Below are positions 1,001-43,855 of a stretch of 43,910 bases of DNA, in pieces. The notes below the pieces were generated by a model. That model ran no database searches, was not told where the DNA came from, and saw only the letters and a program-made list of their open reading frames with translations. The stretch is taken from positions 1 to 43,910 of the IMG/VR virus record IMGVR_UViG_3300041402_000278. The stretch is one strand, 5' to 3'. Origin of the DNA: a virus. Each line of letters opens with the position of its first letter. Position 1 is the stretch's first letter. The position numbers and the translations under genes are program-made.

Positions 1001-3031
1001 ATGGCCCTACCTTATGCAGCATTCCCGAAATACGGAGCCTCCGTGCTAGGACAGGCTAAGTACGACGCGGAATTGCAGGCGTGGGAGCTTTATCAGGCTT
1101 CGCTTCGCAATTCCAGCATGGGCGATTTTGAGATCGCAGATGCCGTCGAATCTGACGGGTCAGACGAGCCTGCAAGCGACCTGGACACCTTCACGTATAT
1201 CCGCAAGTACGTGAAGGAAGGGCAGAGTCGCAAACGGATCTTCCGCGAGCAGAACATCAAGGCGCTCGACGCGGACCACGCACTACGACAAGGGCGTGAC
1301 GCGATGACCGCCGAGCTTGGGCCGAGAGTCTACCCCGGTGAGACCGCCCTCATAAACTGGCAACCCGTACCGGGAACCGAGAAGGCAGCAAAGCCGCGAG
1401 GCAAAGCCTTCGTAGAGGGCGAGGACGAGCGCCGGAACGACGAGGGAACGAACGGATCGACCGGCGAAGCCAGACCCGACAACATGCCAGCCAACGAGGG
1501 GCAGGGCGCCGAGGAGAACACGAGCAACAGCCAAGGCGAAGAGCAGCAGGGCGAAAGCGGCGGGCAGTCCGACGACAGCCAAGACGACGAGAACGAGAGT
1601 TCTCAAGGTGCAGGCGATGGTGACGGGGACACGAGCCAGGGCAACGATCAGCAGGGCGAGGATGACACGCCGAAGATGCCCACATGCCCCGAGTGCGGCG
1701 AGCAGCGCGGGACGACTGAGGGCTGCTGTGCTCCGGAAGACACTGGCATTCCGAAGCCCGATCAGGGTCCTCCGGACGAGGACCGCGACAATTTGCAGCT
1801 ACTTCGGACGGACGGCGAAGCGCCGTACATGGGTCCCGAAGCTCGCCGGAAGATCGAACGGATCTCCCACGAGGAGACCGTGTCCACGCTGACGAAGTCC
1901 CTGCAGGATGTGGATGGCTGGACCCGCGACGTGGTGAAGGGCGCGGTTCACGAGATGGCCGTCGAGCTTTACGGCGCCATGTCGAAGAGCCATGTGAGCC
2001 TAAAGGCTGCGATCGAGAACGGGACCGGAACCAACAGCCTGCCAGCCATGAAGGCTCAGGCTCAAGCCATCGTAGATGAGGCGCTGAAGGGCTTCAAGCC
2101 GTCCGAGGGCTCAGACGTGGACATGGTGGCCGTGCGCTCAGAGATGCAGCGTATGGTGACCGCCGCGTTCGAGGCAAGCGACAACGTGGAGGAATTGGCC
2201 CAGAAGGTGGCCGAGAGACTCAACGCCCCGCGCCGCATCGAAGTTTCGATGAACGGCACGATCAACGAGATCGACGGGACGCCACACGGAGCGTTTGACG
2301 AGTCCCTGCGGGCTATGACTCGCGGGCTGGACTTGTTCATGGTGGGGCCAGCGGGTAGCGGGAAAGGATTCCTGGCCCAGCACTTGGCCGACGCCCTTGG
2401 CCAGCGATTCGGATTCCTCTCGTGTTCCGAAGGAATGAGCGAGGGAATGCTGCTGGGGCGCGGGGTGCCGTTGGCCGATCGGTTCCTGTATCTCGAAAGC
2501 AGCTTCGTGGATTTCTACGAAAACGGTGGGGTGTTCTTGCTCGATGAGATCGACGCCGCGAACCCCAACGTGCTGCTGATTATCAACGAGTGCTTGAGCA
2601 GCCCGCACTTGAGCATCCCGAACCGCGTGGATTCTCCGTATGCGGTTCGTCACGAGGACTTCTACTGCATCGTCGCCGCTAACACATGGGGCACGGGGCC
2701 AGACATGGAGTACGTGGGCCGCAACCGCCTGGACGCGGCTTTCCTGAATCGCTTCATCGGCTCGCAGATTGAGCTTGGCTACGACGCGAAGATCGAAGGC
2801 GCCATCGCCAAGGCGTACATGGGTCCGCAGAAGGCCGAGGACGTGCTCAAGCGGTTCTGGGGCGTTCGCAAGAAGCTGGAGGAACTCAATATCCGTAGGA
2901 TCTGGAGCACCCGAGGGCTGGAGAAAATGTGCATCGCTCTGGCCGCAGGCGACGACATGCACGAGGTACTTGACGCTCACACCCGAGGCTGGACCAGGGA
3001 TGAAAAGTCGAAGGCGGGGGTGACGGGATGA
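1001..3031 (+). CDS. MoxR/CobS-like AAA+ ATPase with acidic linker and zinc motif
   Basis: 676-residue AAA+ ATPase of the MoxR/CobS kind, enzymes that remodel partner proteins using ATP. The N-terminal 110 residues are followed by a long acidic Gln/Ser/Gly/Asp-rich linker (about 145-225), then a cysteine cluster (C229, C232, C242, C243) that may bind zinc. The ATPase core is near 420-600: Walker A GPAGSGKG at 449-456, Walker B FLLDEID at 512-518 and a sensor-1-like VAANTW at 558-563. It is led by a promoter (926-954) and strong binding site, and its stop overlaps the ATG of the next gene, whose product is its likely partner. Related ATPase plus von Willebrand pairs occur in other phages; the target here is unknown. 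Confidence 0.85.
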   Translation: MALPYAAFPKYGASVLGQAKYDAELQAWELYQASLRNSSMGDFEIADAVESDGSDEPASDLDTFTYIRKYVKEGQSRKRIFREQNIKALDADHALRQGRDAMTAELGPRVYPGETALINWQPVPGTEKAAKPRGKAFVEGEDERRNDEGTNGSTGEARPDNMPANEGQGAEENTSNSQGEEQQGESGGQSDDSQDDENESSQGAGDGDGDTSQGNDQQGEDDTPKMPTCPECGEQRGTTEGCCAPEDTGIPKPDQGPPDEDRDNLQLLRTDGEAPYMGPEARRKIERISHEETVSTLTKSLQDVDGWTRDVVKGAVHEMAVELYGAMSKSHVSLKAAIENGTGTNSLPAMKAQAQAIVDEALKGFKPSEGSDVDMVAVRSEMQRMVTAAFEASDNVEELAQKVAERLNAPRRIEVSMNGTINEIDGTPHGAFDESLRAMTRGLDLFMVGPAGSGKGFLAQHLADALGQRFGFLSCSEGMSEGMLLGRGVPLADRFLYLESSFVDFYENGGVFLLDEIDAANPNVLLIINECLSSPHLSIPNRVDSPYAVRHEDFYCIVAANTWGTGPDMEYVGRNRLDAAFLNRFIGSQIELGYDAKIEGAIAKAYMGPQKAEDVLKRFWGVRKKLEELNIRRIWSTRGLEKMCIALAAGDDMHEVLDAHTRGWTRDEKSKAGVTG

Positions 3032-3972
3032 TTGACACGGTAATCCACGAGGGCGAGAGCAAGCGGGTCCATGTGCTGGAGATGGACGTGGGCGAGCTTC
3101 CCGATCTCAAGAACAAGAAGCCGCACCCGGATAACGTGGGGATCGCGGACAGGCTCAGGATGGTGTGGGGGCTGCGTGAGGCGCGGGAAGGTGAAGATCC
3201 GACCCCATGGGACGGGAGCCCGAAGTCGTTTTACTTGGGGCGCCTGAAGGACATTCATTCCGTTGACAAACGGCTTGAGAAGGGCTGGAAAGACGGGTCC
3301 GAGAAGGCGCTGACATTGGCCGCAGGTCTCAAGGATAAGATCAGCCAGCCGTTGAGCATACGGCGCAAGCTACGCTGGTCCGACGACGGCGACGAGTTCG
3401 ACCGCGAGCGCCTGAACGATGGGCACTTCGATAGCTGCTGGCGCACTACGCACCGGGAGATCGCGGTGGCCGTGCCCGTTATCACGATCGCCATGTCGTG
3501 GGGCGGGAATGCGAACACGAGCCATGAGCAACTTTTCTGGTCTGGGGCTGCAGCTTTGGCGCTCTGCCAAGTGCTGGAGGAGGCTGGATATCAGACGAGC
3601 CTCACGGCCATAGCGCCCACGAGGTACGAGTACGGCTCAGGAAAATTTCAGGCCATGTGCGTGACCGTGAAGAGGGCGGGCGAGTACATGAGATCGGATG
3701 CGCTGGCGAGCGTGATCTGTCTGGGTCCGACGTTCCGAACCTACGGTTTCATGGGCACGTATCTGTGCCCGTGGGGAATTGACGATGCGCTGGGATCGCA
3801 CGGAAACATCGAGATGCTGATGCCTCAGATCGTGGAGGCGGGCGCCATGGACTCGCCACAAATCACGCTCCCAGACTCGCGGGACAGATGGAGTGCGAAG
3901 GCGGCAATCGTGAATGCGCTGGAGCAGCTTAGGGCTGCAAATCTGGCGGCGCTACCGGAGGTACTACGATGA
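3028..3972 (+). CDS. Putative von Willebrand/CobT-like partner of the AAA+ ATPase
   Basis: 314-residue protein translationally coupled to the AAA+ gene (ATG at 3028 overlaps its stop). After a charged N-terminal third, the middle has alternating hydrophobic strands and helices (VPVITIAMSWGGNANTS, then ALALCQVLEEAGYQTSLTAIAP), the layout expected of a von Willebrand factor A-like alpha/beta fold. A canonical DxSxS metal site is not obvious. MoxR/CobS ATPases usually act with such a partner encoded next door, as in CobS-CobT. The assignment therefore rests on context plus fold pattern and not on a diagnostic motif; it could be an unrelated phage protein family. Confidence 0.6.
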   Translation: MIDTVIHEGESKRVHVLEMDVGELPDLKNKKPHPDNVGIADRLRMVWGLREAREGEDPTPWDGSPKSFYLGRLKDIHSVDKRLEKGWKDGSEKALTLAAGLKDKISQPLSIRRKLRWSDDGDEFDRERLNDGHFDSCWRTTHREIAVAVPVITIAMSWGGNANTSHEQLFWSGAAALALCQVLEEAGYQTSLTAIAPTRYEYGSGKFQAMCVTVKRAGEYMRSDALASVICLGPTFRTYGFMGTYLCPWGIDDALGSHGNIEMLMPQIVEAGAMDSPQITLPDSRDRWSAKAAIVNALEQLRAANLAALPEVLR

Positions 3973-4322
3973 AAATCCTGAAACGCTTCCGTGCTCTGAC
4001 CTGGACGCAGATCCGGGAAGGGGCGCGGGAGCTTAACGGGGCGCGGGGGTTCCTACGCGCCATGAGAAAAGACTGGTACATGTGGTTCGCCGTCGTGATG
4101 GCTCTCGTGCTCCAAAGCTACGGTCTCATGGCCGTGCTCGCGGTGTGCTCCACGTTCGGCGCGACGACCCGCGAGTGGACGCTCGACGGGTACAAGAAAA
4201 TGCTCGACGGGTACGGCACCATGGTCGATCAGCAGCAGGGGATCATCGGTTCGTACCAGCGCGAGAACGGCAGGCACCCGAGCGAGCAGGCCGCAACCGA
4301 CAGGCTAGGGAGGATGAATTGA
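3969..4322 (+). CDS. Small membrane protein (117 aa)
   Basis: Unrecognised protein with a basic N-terminus and one strongly hydrophobic segment at about residues 37-60 (WYMWFAVVMALVLQSYGLMAV), then a polar C-terminal half rich in Gln, Tyr and Gly that may form a helix. One or two membrane passes are possible. The ATG at 3969 overlaps the preceding stop, placing it in the same operon as the ATPase pair. A membrane anchor or superinfection-exclusion role would be a guess. Confidence 0.65.
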   Translation: MKILKRFRALTWTQIREGARELNGARGFLRAMRKDWYMWFAVVMALVLQSYGLMAVLAVCSTFGATTREWTLDGYKKMLDGYGTMVDQQQGIIGSYQRENGRHPSEQAATDRLGRMN

Positions 4323-4702
4323 AATACGGGATGAAGAAACCGTGTAACAACTGCCCTTTCGTGCGGAGGCACAACTTCTATCTCAAACCCGAGCGTGTCG
4401 AGGAATTGCGGGACAACACAGGCGAGTTCCCGTGCCACCAGACGGTGGACTACGACCAAGCGATGGACGACGACGAGGGGTACGACGGAGTCGTGAGACA
4501 GGACCGAGATCAGTCCCAAGAAGTGCATTGTTTGGGACATCTTATTGTCCAATGGAGTGACTGGGGCGGGTTCAACAAGATCCAGGCATGGTCGGCTCGC
4601 CTGGGTGAGTTCAAGCCCGAGGACATGCCGACGCCCGAGGAGGCGGACGTGTTCGAGACCTGGGAAGAGATGATCGAACGGTGCCGGGAGATGGACGGAT
4701 GA
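4319..4702 (+). CDS. DUF6283-like cysteine-rich protein
   Basis: About 127 residues with the pattern CNNCPF, then FPCH, then CLGHL. This resembles a family of small phage and actinobacterial proteins of unknown function (DUF6283-like) with conserved cysteines and histidine suited to metal binding. The start chosen is TTG at 4319, overlapping the previous stop (TTGA) and preceded by GGGAGG at 4308-4313. An ATG at 4331, four codons later, is an alternative with a poorer binding site. The C-terminal half is acidic and Trp-rich. Function unknown. Confidence 0.65.
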   Translation: MKYGMKKPCNNCPFVRRHNFYLKPERVEELRDNTGEFPCHQTVDYDQAMDDDEGYDGVVRQDRDQSQEVHCLGHLIVQWSDWGGFNKIQAWSARLGEFKPEDMPTPEEADVFETWEEMIERCREMDG

Positions 4703-41249: not shown

Positions 41250-41530
41250 AGCGTGATGATGGGGCTTTCGGGCTTCTCCTCGGCCTCCATCGCCTCGCGC
41301 TCCTCTAGGATCGTCTGCCTGATCGCACGACGCAGTCCGAAGTCGAGCACCTTCATGGCCTCGTGAACGTCGGCTTTGGTCGTGTAGATCGCGAGAACCT
41401 GCACAAGCTCCTGCCTGGTGATCTTGTAGCCCATCTTCTGCGGGCTGAAGAACTCGGACAGAGTGACACCCCCGACCATCAACTGGGGGTCGCCTTCTCC
41501 GTTCGGCTTTTTCGGCTTAATGTCGCTCAT
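41246..41530 (-). CDS. Hypothetical protein (94 aa)
   Basis: Small unrecognised protein with a basic N-terminus ('SDIKPKKPNGEGDPQ') and a helical C-terminal half ('ELVQVLAIYTTKADVHEAMKVLDFGLRRAIRQTILEERE'). The ATG at 41530 overlaps the terminase stop. It may be a packaging accessory factor on position alone; there is no motif. Confidence 0.5.
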   Translation of the reverse strand: MSDIKPKKPNGEGDPQLMVGGVTLSEFFSPQKMGYKITRQELVQVLAIYTTKADVHEAMKVLDFGLRRAIRQTILEEREAMEAEEKPESPIITL

Positions 41531-43029
41531 ATCATCCCATCCACGTAGAGATCTCTCATGTCCTGATCCTCGGGTCTGTCTAGTGTAAGTGGACTCCGGT
41601 GCCTGCGCGACTTCTCCATCTCAAACAGCAGGGTCTCCCTGCTGAAAGCCCGAACTTCCCGATCCTGCCAGGTAGACTTTGGCCGCGTCGGACGGGACGC
41701 GAGAGCGTACCGGGTTTCATCGTAAGCGTCGTCGCCACCCTCGCCCGTGATCGGGTCCGCATTGATCTTCAGGGCGTCCTCGGGATCGTCCGGATTCACG
41801 ATCATGTTCTGCAGGCTCTCGAAGCACTTCATGTTCCCCGGCGTGTCGAGTATGTAGAAGTTCGGCTCCCCATCCTCGCCGCCCGACAGACGGCCCTTGT
41901 AGGCGACCTGCTCACGGAAATTCCTGAGCCCCGCGTAACGCGCCACAGACGCCCGTGTGAGGTAGATGCCGTCCTCCGAGAACCTCTCGTGGGTCGAGGG
42001 CGTCGTGTCGTCCCTGCGGGCTCCATGGTGCGCCCAGCAGTCATGCCCGGCCACGATGTATTCGAGAGCCTTCACATCGACGTGGTGGTTGATGGATTCC
42101 GCGATGAGGCGGTCAGACATCAGCCGTCCGCCGTAGGTGTTGATCTTGAAGATCACGCCGTCCTCGTTGACCGCGTAGTGGCCGAATACCCACGGGTGGG
42201 CGAACCCCCAGTCGAAGGACCCGAACTGTGTCCAGTTGCTTGGAATATCGAACTGCTGGACGAGATGCACGTCCTCGGAAAGCTCATCGAGCGCCATCCC
42301 GAATCCGGCGTCCCAATCGCCGTAGAGAAGCTGTCTGCGGATCATCTCGGGCAGGCTGAAGAGATTCGCCATGTAGACGGCGTCGTTGGCGTAGATCGGG
42401 TTGTCCGTCACGCGAGCGGGGATGAATCGGCGGCTTATGGTCGCCGTGAGGCCACCCGGCATCTCGTACTTGAACCTGTAGATGTTCTCGCCCTGTTTCC
42501 CGCATTTGTCGATGAACCGGCGCTTCACCCAAGGATGTCCAGGTTTCCCCGGATTCGCGGTCCCTCTCATCATCCGGATCACTTCCGGGTTCGGGCAACG
42601 GTTCTCAGCCATGAGCATGACCCACACCCGCTCGTCGGGAACGTCACCGACCTCATCGAAACCGATGTAAGCCCATTCCTGCCCGTGATACCGCTGGACC
42701 TCGTCTTTCGTCTTGCAGTATCCGAACTGCAGAATTCCGCCGCCGGGGAAGACCCAACGCTTGAGATCGCCCTTCCAGTCGGGCGGATTCGCCATCTGAG
42801 GAAAGCTGCGCTGGGATCTGTCGATGAGTTCCTGGACCTCCGGGAACGTCTGCCTGAGAATCAGGGCTTTGTACCGATCGAGATGGATCTGCGAAAGGGC
42901 TGCAAAGAGGATGGCGTCAGACTTCGCACAGCCCTTCGCGCCGCCGTACAAGACCTCGGTTTCGGTGGATCTGCAGAAGTCCGTCTGGGGTTTGCTGAGA
43001 GGCGCCCAGACGACTTTCTCTTCAGCCAC
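41527..43029 (-). CDS. terL: Large terminase subunit (packaging ATPase-nuclease)
   Basis: 500-residue DNA packaging motor. The ATPase half shows Walker A GGAKGCAKS at about 29-37, a 'W-A-Y-I-G-F-D-E' Walker B with D125/E126, and 'GTANPGKPGHPW' as the coupling motif. The nuclease half shows 'FDWGFAHPWVFG' (first metal-binding Asp), 'VAGHDCWAHHG' and 'GGDDAYDETRYAL' (later acidic residues) in the RNase H-like layout of viral terminases. It starts at GTG 43029, overlapping the stop of the upstream gene. It pumps phage DNA into the capsid through the portal. Confidence 0.92.
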   Translation of the reverse strand: MAEEKVVWAPLSKPQTDFCRSTETEVLYGGAKGCAKSDAILFAALSQIHLDRYKALILRQTFPEVQELIDRSQRSFPQMANPPDWKGDLKRWVFPGGGILQFGYCKTKDEVQRYHGQEWAYIGFDEVGDVPDERVWVMLMAENRCPNPEVIRMMRGTANPGKPGHPWVKRRFIDKCGKQGENIYRFKYEMPGGLTATISRRFIPARVTDNPIYANDAVYMANLFSLPEMIRRQLLYGDWDAGFGMALDELSEDVHLVQQFDIPSNWTQFGSFDWGFAHPWVFGHYAVNEDGVIFKINTYGGRLMSDRLIAESINHHVDVKALEYIVAGHDCWAHHGARRDDTTPSTHERFSEDGIYLTRASVARYAGLRNFREQVAYKGRLSGGEDGEPNFYILDTPGNMKCFESLQNMIVNPDDPEDALKINADPITGEGGDDAYDETRYALASRPTRPKSTWQDREVRAFSRETLLFEMEKSRRHRSPLTLDRPEDQDMRDLYVDGMI

Positions 43030-43570
43030 AATCTGCCCGCAAGTCCACCAGCACCGCGATCTGTTCGGGGCTCATCCATGACTCGCCTCGATACCCCTTT
43101 AGCTCTTCAGGCGTACCCACGGTGCCCTCTTCGAGCCGCTGGCGGGCCGACTCGATCATCGCCTTCGCGTACTTCTTACAGAACGCCTCCGGGTCGTCCT
43201 TCAGCAGCATTAAGTCGATCATGCTGATATCGGGTTCGGCCTCGCGGATGGGCATGAAGATCGACTTGCCTTCCCGCGCCAGATGGATGTTGAAGCCGGT
43301 CGGCTTCCGGGTAGAGACCTCGTACTCGACCTCGACGTGGTCCGCCCCAGCTTCCCTCATCTTCTGCGTCTTCCCCGCCCGCCGCGCTTGCTGCACGATA
43401 TCGGGGAGCACAGGCTTATACACCGAGCCGCCAGTGACTCGCGGCCCTAATACATTGTCAGGGGGCATACCTACCTCCGGCCACTGGCCCTCAAGCCACT
43501 TGGCGAATTTGTCGTCAGGGAACTGCTCCCTGAACGCCTTCGCGATCTCATCAATGTTGGAAAGCGCCAC
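43022..43570 (-). CDS. Possible small terminase or virion-associated protein (182 aa)
   Basis: Located directly before the large terminase and overlapping it by 8 bases, the usual place of the small terminase. It starts at GTG 43570 with a GAGAGTGAG site upstream. It has no clear helix-turn-helix, so the name rests on position. Visible elements are 'NVLGPRVTGGSVYKP' near residue 38, related to a repeated motif in the 29248-29706 protein, a strand-rich centre ('HVEVEYEVSTRKPTGFNIHL') and a helical C-terminus ('DPEAFCKKYAKAMIESARQRLEEG'). Confidence 0.5.
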   Translation of the reverse strand: MALSNIDEIAKAFREQFPDDKFAKWLEGQWPEVGMPPDNVLGPRVTGGSVYKPVLPDIVQQARRAGKTQKMREAGADHVEVEYEVSTRKPTGFNIHLAREGKSIFMPIREAEPDISMIDLMLLKDDPEAFCKKYAKAMIESARQRLEEGTVGTPEELKGYRGESWMSPEQIAVLVDLRADCG

Positions 43571-43573
43571 GAC

Positions 43574-43855
43574 TCACTCTCGATGGCTGATCGCCTGGTT
43601 CGCCCAAAACATGGCCTCCTGGCACTTCCGGATCGCGAGCGTTTTCTCGGGTCCGTGGGGGCACTTCTCCTCGATCGTCATAGCGAAGACTCGGGCGCGA
43701 TCACGAATCGTCAAGATCGCCTCTGCCTGCTGTGACCCGCTGGGTACGGCTGTGGGCTTGAAGAACTTCGCGAGATCCTTCAGGCGTAGCCTGCGAGATG
43801 CTGCCGGGTGGTCAGCCGGTACTTCGGGTCCTAGCTCCTGTTGTCCTTCCGCCAT
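43574..43855 (-). CDS. Acb2/Tad1-hairpin-type protein (probable cyclic-nucleotide sponge)
   Basis: 93-residue protein whose C-terminal half is a helical hairpin: 'AILTIRDRARVFAMTIEEKCP' followed by 'EKTLAIRKCQEAMFWANQAI'. This resembles the Acb2/Tad1 hairpin family, where '(S/T)-LA-I-x-(K/R) ... (E/A)-x-x-M-(W/F)-A-x-x-A-I' marks the second helix. Known Acb2 proteins form hexamers that sequester cyclic nucleotides made by CBASS and related defences, while Tad1-type members bind Thoeris signals. The N-terminal 40 residues are disordered. It begins at ATG 43855 after GGAGAA. Being first in the visible late operon is unusual for an anti-defence gene; binding activity is untested. Confidence 0.65.
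   Translation of the reverse strand: MAEGQQELGPEVPADHPAASRRLRLKDLAKFFKPTAVPSGSQQAEAILTIRDRARVFAMTIEEKCPHGPEKTLAIRKCQEAMFWANQAISHRE

Follow-up and report, generated by a model that had tools for sequence, protein, structure and literature searches.

The acb2 locus and its relatives

The stretch of DNA analysed here (the window) comprises the 43910 bases of a virus record that is not classed as complete. Near one end it carries a minus-strand gene, acb2, that encodes a 93-aa protein, starts with ATG and stops with TGA, the stop being counted within the coordinates given in Table 1. The reading frame lies exactly where the original prediction had placed it, and the TLAIRKCQEAMFWANQAI motif was confirmed within the second helix of the hairpin (residues 69-92 of an AlphaFold2 model). 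As long antisense frames are present at the same place in this GC-rich DNA, a chance open reading frame was considered; it was rejected on the basis of the minus-strand dN/dS and of a conserved start and ribosome-binding site. In pairwise comparisons of the window genes with those of four relatives, dN/dS was 0.20-0.29 for acb2 and 0.15-0.18 for the terminase large subunit gene (terL). Thus, acb2 is a real coding gene under purifying selection that evolves faster than the terminase.

Table 1. Positions of acb2 and other features of the window.
Feature	Coordinates	Strand	Evidence or remark
Shine-Dalgarno-like GGAGAA	43861..43866	-	5 nt upstream of the acb2 ATG; direct sequence reading
acb2-like gene, 93 aa, Acb2/Tad1 hairpin family	43574..43855	-	PF24729, phrog_1454, AlphaFold2, dN/dS
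182-aa gene between acb2 and terL	43022..43570	-	no Pfam match, no significant PHROG match
Terminase large subunit, next in the acb2 operon	41527..43029	-	phrog_979 (E 8.7e-40), phrog_2 (E 2.8e-21)
93-aa protein with LuxR-type helix-turn-helix	40585-40866		GerE (E 1.7e-6)
AAA_5 (MoxR-like) ATPase, immediately followed by DUF7192 protein	1001-3972		start of the rightward early arm

When viral contigs were searched with one sequence, no relatives of acb2 were returned; these appeared once an alignment was used: a profile scan of the contigs yielded at least 394, from which 80 loci were retained. Four of them (L007-L010) encode proteins 51-57% identical to that of acb2 and come from the phage group of the window, with about 74% identity in TerL and about 75% in the portal protein. 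A second scan of the viral contigs with a profile of this clade returned the same four relatives and no others, and no clade members were found in sequenced bacterial genomes. At another locus, a tblastn match to the Acb2 family in Paenibacillus phage Xenia (NC_028837.1, 38609-38812; locus L092, 2995-3198) is annotated as a phosphomannomutase, an annotation that the match contradicts.

The position of the gene in its operon is kept in all four close relatives, in which acb2 overlaps or abuts terL. The original prediction had placed the gene next to terminase genes, which is borne out in the relatives; in the window, a 182-aa gene intervenes, whose GTG start lies 3 nt past the acb2 stop, which is absent from the same place in the four relatives and which has no similarity to a 213-aa gene that they carry. 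In L007, the plus strand carries, in order, genes for a 117-aa membrane protein with two spans and for the 213-aa protein (an N-terminal membrane span followed by a long helical region, probably a coiled coil), then acb2 and terL, which share 4 nt. The two membrane-protein genes upstream of acb2 (L007 8946-9941) are holin- and spanin-like by anatomy and have no significant profile match; going by anatomy alone, the two genes that precede acb2 in the relatives look like lysis genes. There, as the third gene, acb2 stands close to the head of a late operon without occupying it; the original prediction had put it at the head itself, which the window does not show, since it breaks off 55 bp before the acb2 start codon. 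Further upstream in L007, genes lie on the other strand, including those for a replication protein and a methyltransferase, and the early arm of this relative (1090-4447, minus strand) holds two separate genes that match phosphoadenosine phosphosulfate reductase (phrog_424), near a DNA methyltransferase. The early arm of the window begins with an AAA_5/DUF7192 pair that resembles a MoxR/metal-chelatase-like module.

Family assignment and predicted fold

Members of the Acb2 "sponge" family soak up bacterial alarm molecules. The 93-aa protein matches the Pfam family PF24729 (Acb2_Tad1_hairpin) with 41.1 bits (E 2.1e-10), against a cut-off of 27 bits, a match that was also confirmed by genome search, and it matches phrog_1454 in PHROGs (E 6.7e-13). 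Its close relatives exceed the PF24729 cut-off as well and, as a control, both T4 Vs.4, a characterised Acb2, and an alignment-derived 9ptq sequence match the same family. A single-sequence search of solved structures found only 9ptq (Acb2 homolog 43; E 0.026); when a profile of the 62-sequence family alignment was compared with the PDB, 9ptq was recovered at E 9.9e-10, with Tad1 and T4 Vs.4 chains weaker. By these sequence comparisons, the similarity to the Acb2/Tad1 hairpin family is far beyond chance, and the profile matches and the predicted architecture agree with the family assignment first proposed for the gene. The best solved relative by sequence, 9ptq, aligns over 59 residues, with PHGPEKTLAIRKCQEAMFWA aligned to a 20-letter stretch; it has 76 aa, is without the N-terminal extension and retains an F-x-x-H that the window clade does not have.

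A single-chain AlphaFold2 model built from the 62-sequence alignment has a mean pLDDT of 81.4 (about 95 in the hairpin) and predicts helices at residues 17-31, 42-64 and 69-92 and no strands. A short N-terminal tail had been expected; residues 1-16 are indeed loose in the model, while residues 17-31 form a helix. The predicted arrangement, a short N-terminal helix followed by a helical hairpin, is the architecture of Acb2 and not that of Tad1. In a Foldseek search of BFVD, the name Acb2/Tad1 hairpin is carried by the top match and by many of the 31 best, with high probability and weak E-values (0.01-1). Against the PDB, Acb2 was absent from the 50 Foldseek matches shown, none of which reached E <= 0.001, an outcome that small helical chains can give and that makes this search uninformative. 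With the Acb2 proteins of T4 (Vs.4, PDB 7uq2) and Pseudomonas phage PaP2 (gp26, PDB 8h2j), the protein shares PF24729 (tested for Vs.4), a size of 88-94 aa and, as predicted, a short N-terminal helix with two long antiparallel helices.

Pocket residues and alternative readings

Four residues (R51, A74, W84 and N86) do not vary anywhere in the 62-sequence family alignment, and R51 is aligned with K23 of T4 and K26 of PaP2, the latter of which we take to be a ligand-binding residue. Other pocket positions differ from those of the characterised proteins. T4 Acb2 sequesters cyclic dinucleotides, with Y8 and F82 mattering for binding and Y8A disrupting it (PMC12657218), and T68M reduces its affinity (PMC12657230). 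These three residues, needed for full binding in T4, are not retained in register in the window protein. No residue stands out as the equivalent of the dinucleotide-stacking aromatic Y8 (PaP2 Y11): the candidates are P34, when counted ungapped from F32, and F31/F32, with a loop insertion. T68 corresponds to R76 in the window protein (M in three relatives; T in the family consensus), and F82 to S90 (family consensus A). Neither position is diagnostic of the family: most members lack F82, and T68 bears specifically on ligand strength. Across the clade, family-conserved positions are exchanged (Y34 to P, H35 to T/V, R69 to P/D, T76 to R/M/Q, A90 to S and R91 to H), whereas all five clade members have the same C-terminal EAMFWANQAISHR. 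The four close relatives also share, without exception, H16 and the segment A18-A19-S20-R21-R22-x-R24; this N-terminal AASRRxR is found nowhere else in the family alignment and sets the window protein apart from the T4 and PaP2 proteins. The best reading of these sequence patterns is an Acb2-type clade with a remodelled pocket. Since the pocket of this clade differs from those of the characterised Acb2 proteins, at the positions of T68 and F82 and apparently at that of Y8, ligand choice is not transferable from T4 or PaMx33, and the exact ligand is not predictable.

The clade-wide replacements at positions 34, 35, 69, 76, 90 and 91 would also fit a protein of Acb2 fold that has lost the ability to bind signalling nucleotides, or that binds some other small ligand, and serves a different late role. 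We regard this as unlikely: the family-invariant R51, A74, W84 and N86 and the identical EAMFWANQAISHR indicate a protein that is constrained and not decaying. Equally doubtful is a more specific version of divergence, in which the terL-overlapping genes would make up a distinct Acb2-fold clade of podovirus-like phages, marked by the remodelled pocket and the basic N-terminal segment, that sequesters a different signal (not yet a known Acb2 ligand) or couples signal binding to packaging.

Still less probable is a role in DNA packaging, for which an Acb2-like hairpin would have been recruited: acb2, just ahead of terL, would then encode a helical oligomer acting as small terminase or packaging adaptor. 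The gene lies directly against terL, or nearly so, in all five phages, its basic AASRRxR segment is conserved and its pocket positions have diverged, all of which would suit such a role. However, a match to small terminases, which would have spoken against a sponge, was not found for the 93-aa protein in Pfam or PHROGs; the AlphaFold2 model has a single N-terminal helix and no helix-turn-helix, and the Acb2 family lies far from terL in many phages. Given neither profile support nor a helix-turn-helix, the small terminase reading was rejected. A better candidate is the LuxR-type helix-turn-helix protein encoded just after terL in the window and, likewise, in all four relatives, which may be a small terminase or a late regulator. 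Finally, a sponge of Tad1 type whose main target would be gcADPR is very improbable and was ruled out: PF24729 takes in the hairpins of Acb2 and Tad1 alike, Tad1 chains are weak matches to the family profile and a C-terminal hairpin is common to Tad1 (PDB 7uav, 8kbb-8kbh) and the window protein, but Tad1 carries an N-terminal beta domain (PMC12043709), and the three-helix model of the window protein is without this antiparallel beta-sheet domain, at 93 aa compared to 123-138 aa in solved Tad1 chains.

Terminase-side placement and proposed function

The original prediction had considered placement beside the terminase unexpected, a view weakened both by its recurrence in other phages and by what is known of defence triggers. 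In three cultured actinophages of different phage groups, Acb2-family genes annotated as hypothetical lie a few genes upstream of, and on the same strand as, the terminase large subunit: Aminay gene 3 (three genes before it), Juliette gene 5 (four genes before it) and Ibantik gene 60 (a few genes before it). The Aminay and Ibantik proteins are 27-31% identical to the window protein. Elsewhere among cultured phages, the family gene follows a holin (Esketit), sits amid nucleotide-metabolism genes (Anon and Anthony) or follows replication genes near the genome end (AJG77). Unlike the window gene in its late packaging operon, T4 vs.4 lies amid small genes around regB, and PaP2 gp26 is on the strand opposite the head genes. 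TerL was located in 34 uncultured records; in 11 of these a family member lay within 3 kb of it, compared to about 8 expected at random, and enrichment near TerL as a general trait of the family was rejected. Terminase-side placement therefore recurs, also in several uncultured lineages, and is neither typical nor novel.

The major capsid protein sets off staphylococcal Thoeris, and the prohead protease does the same for an E. coli CBASS cyclase (PMC11312562). As the triggers of CBASS and Thoeris include such late head-morphogenesis proteins, late synthesis of a sponge can make sense. We consider it likely that acb2 encodes an Acb2-type sponge, probably a hexamer, that binds cyclic oligonucleotide alarm signals and belongs to the late packaging operon; as the original prediction reasonably held, the 93-aa protein most likely acts against signalling, and we infer its hexameric state, nucleotide binding, anti-defence role and late timing. 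In this model, the hairpin protein would assemble, probably, into a hexamer that binds the signals (of CBASS type, perhaps a ligand of Thoeris type) and leaves them intact; with the signals sequestered, suicide effectors would remain off. Expression from the late packaging operon would supply the sponge just as the head-morphogenesis proteins, known triggers, appear and the alarm may start.

On its own, acb2 leaves the picture of phage counter-defence unchanged. The divergent Acb2-type clade to which it appears to belong, with altered pocket residues, may be useful for mapping the positions that govern ligand choice. As an example of a putative sponge gene fixed in a late packaging operon, acb2 also raises a testable point, namely whether phages produce their sponges in time with the head proteins that set off CBASS and Thoeris.
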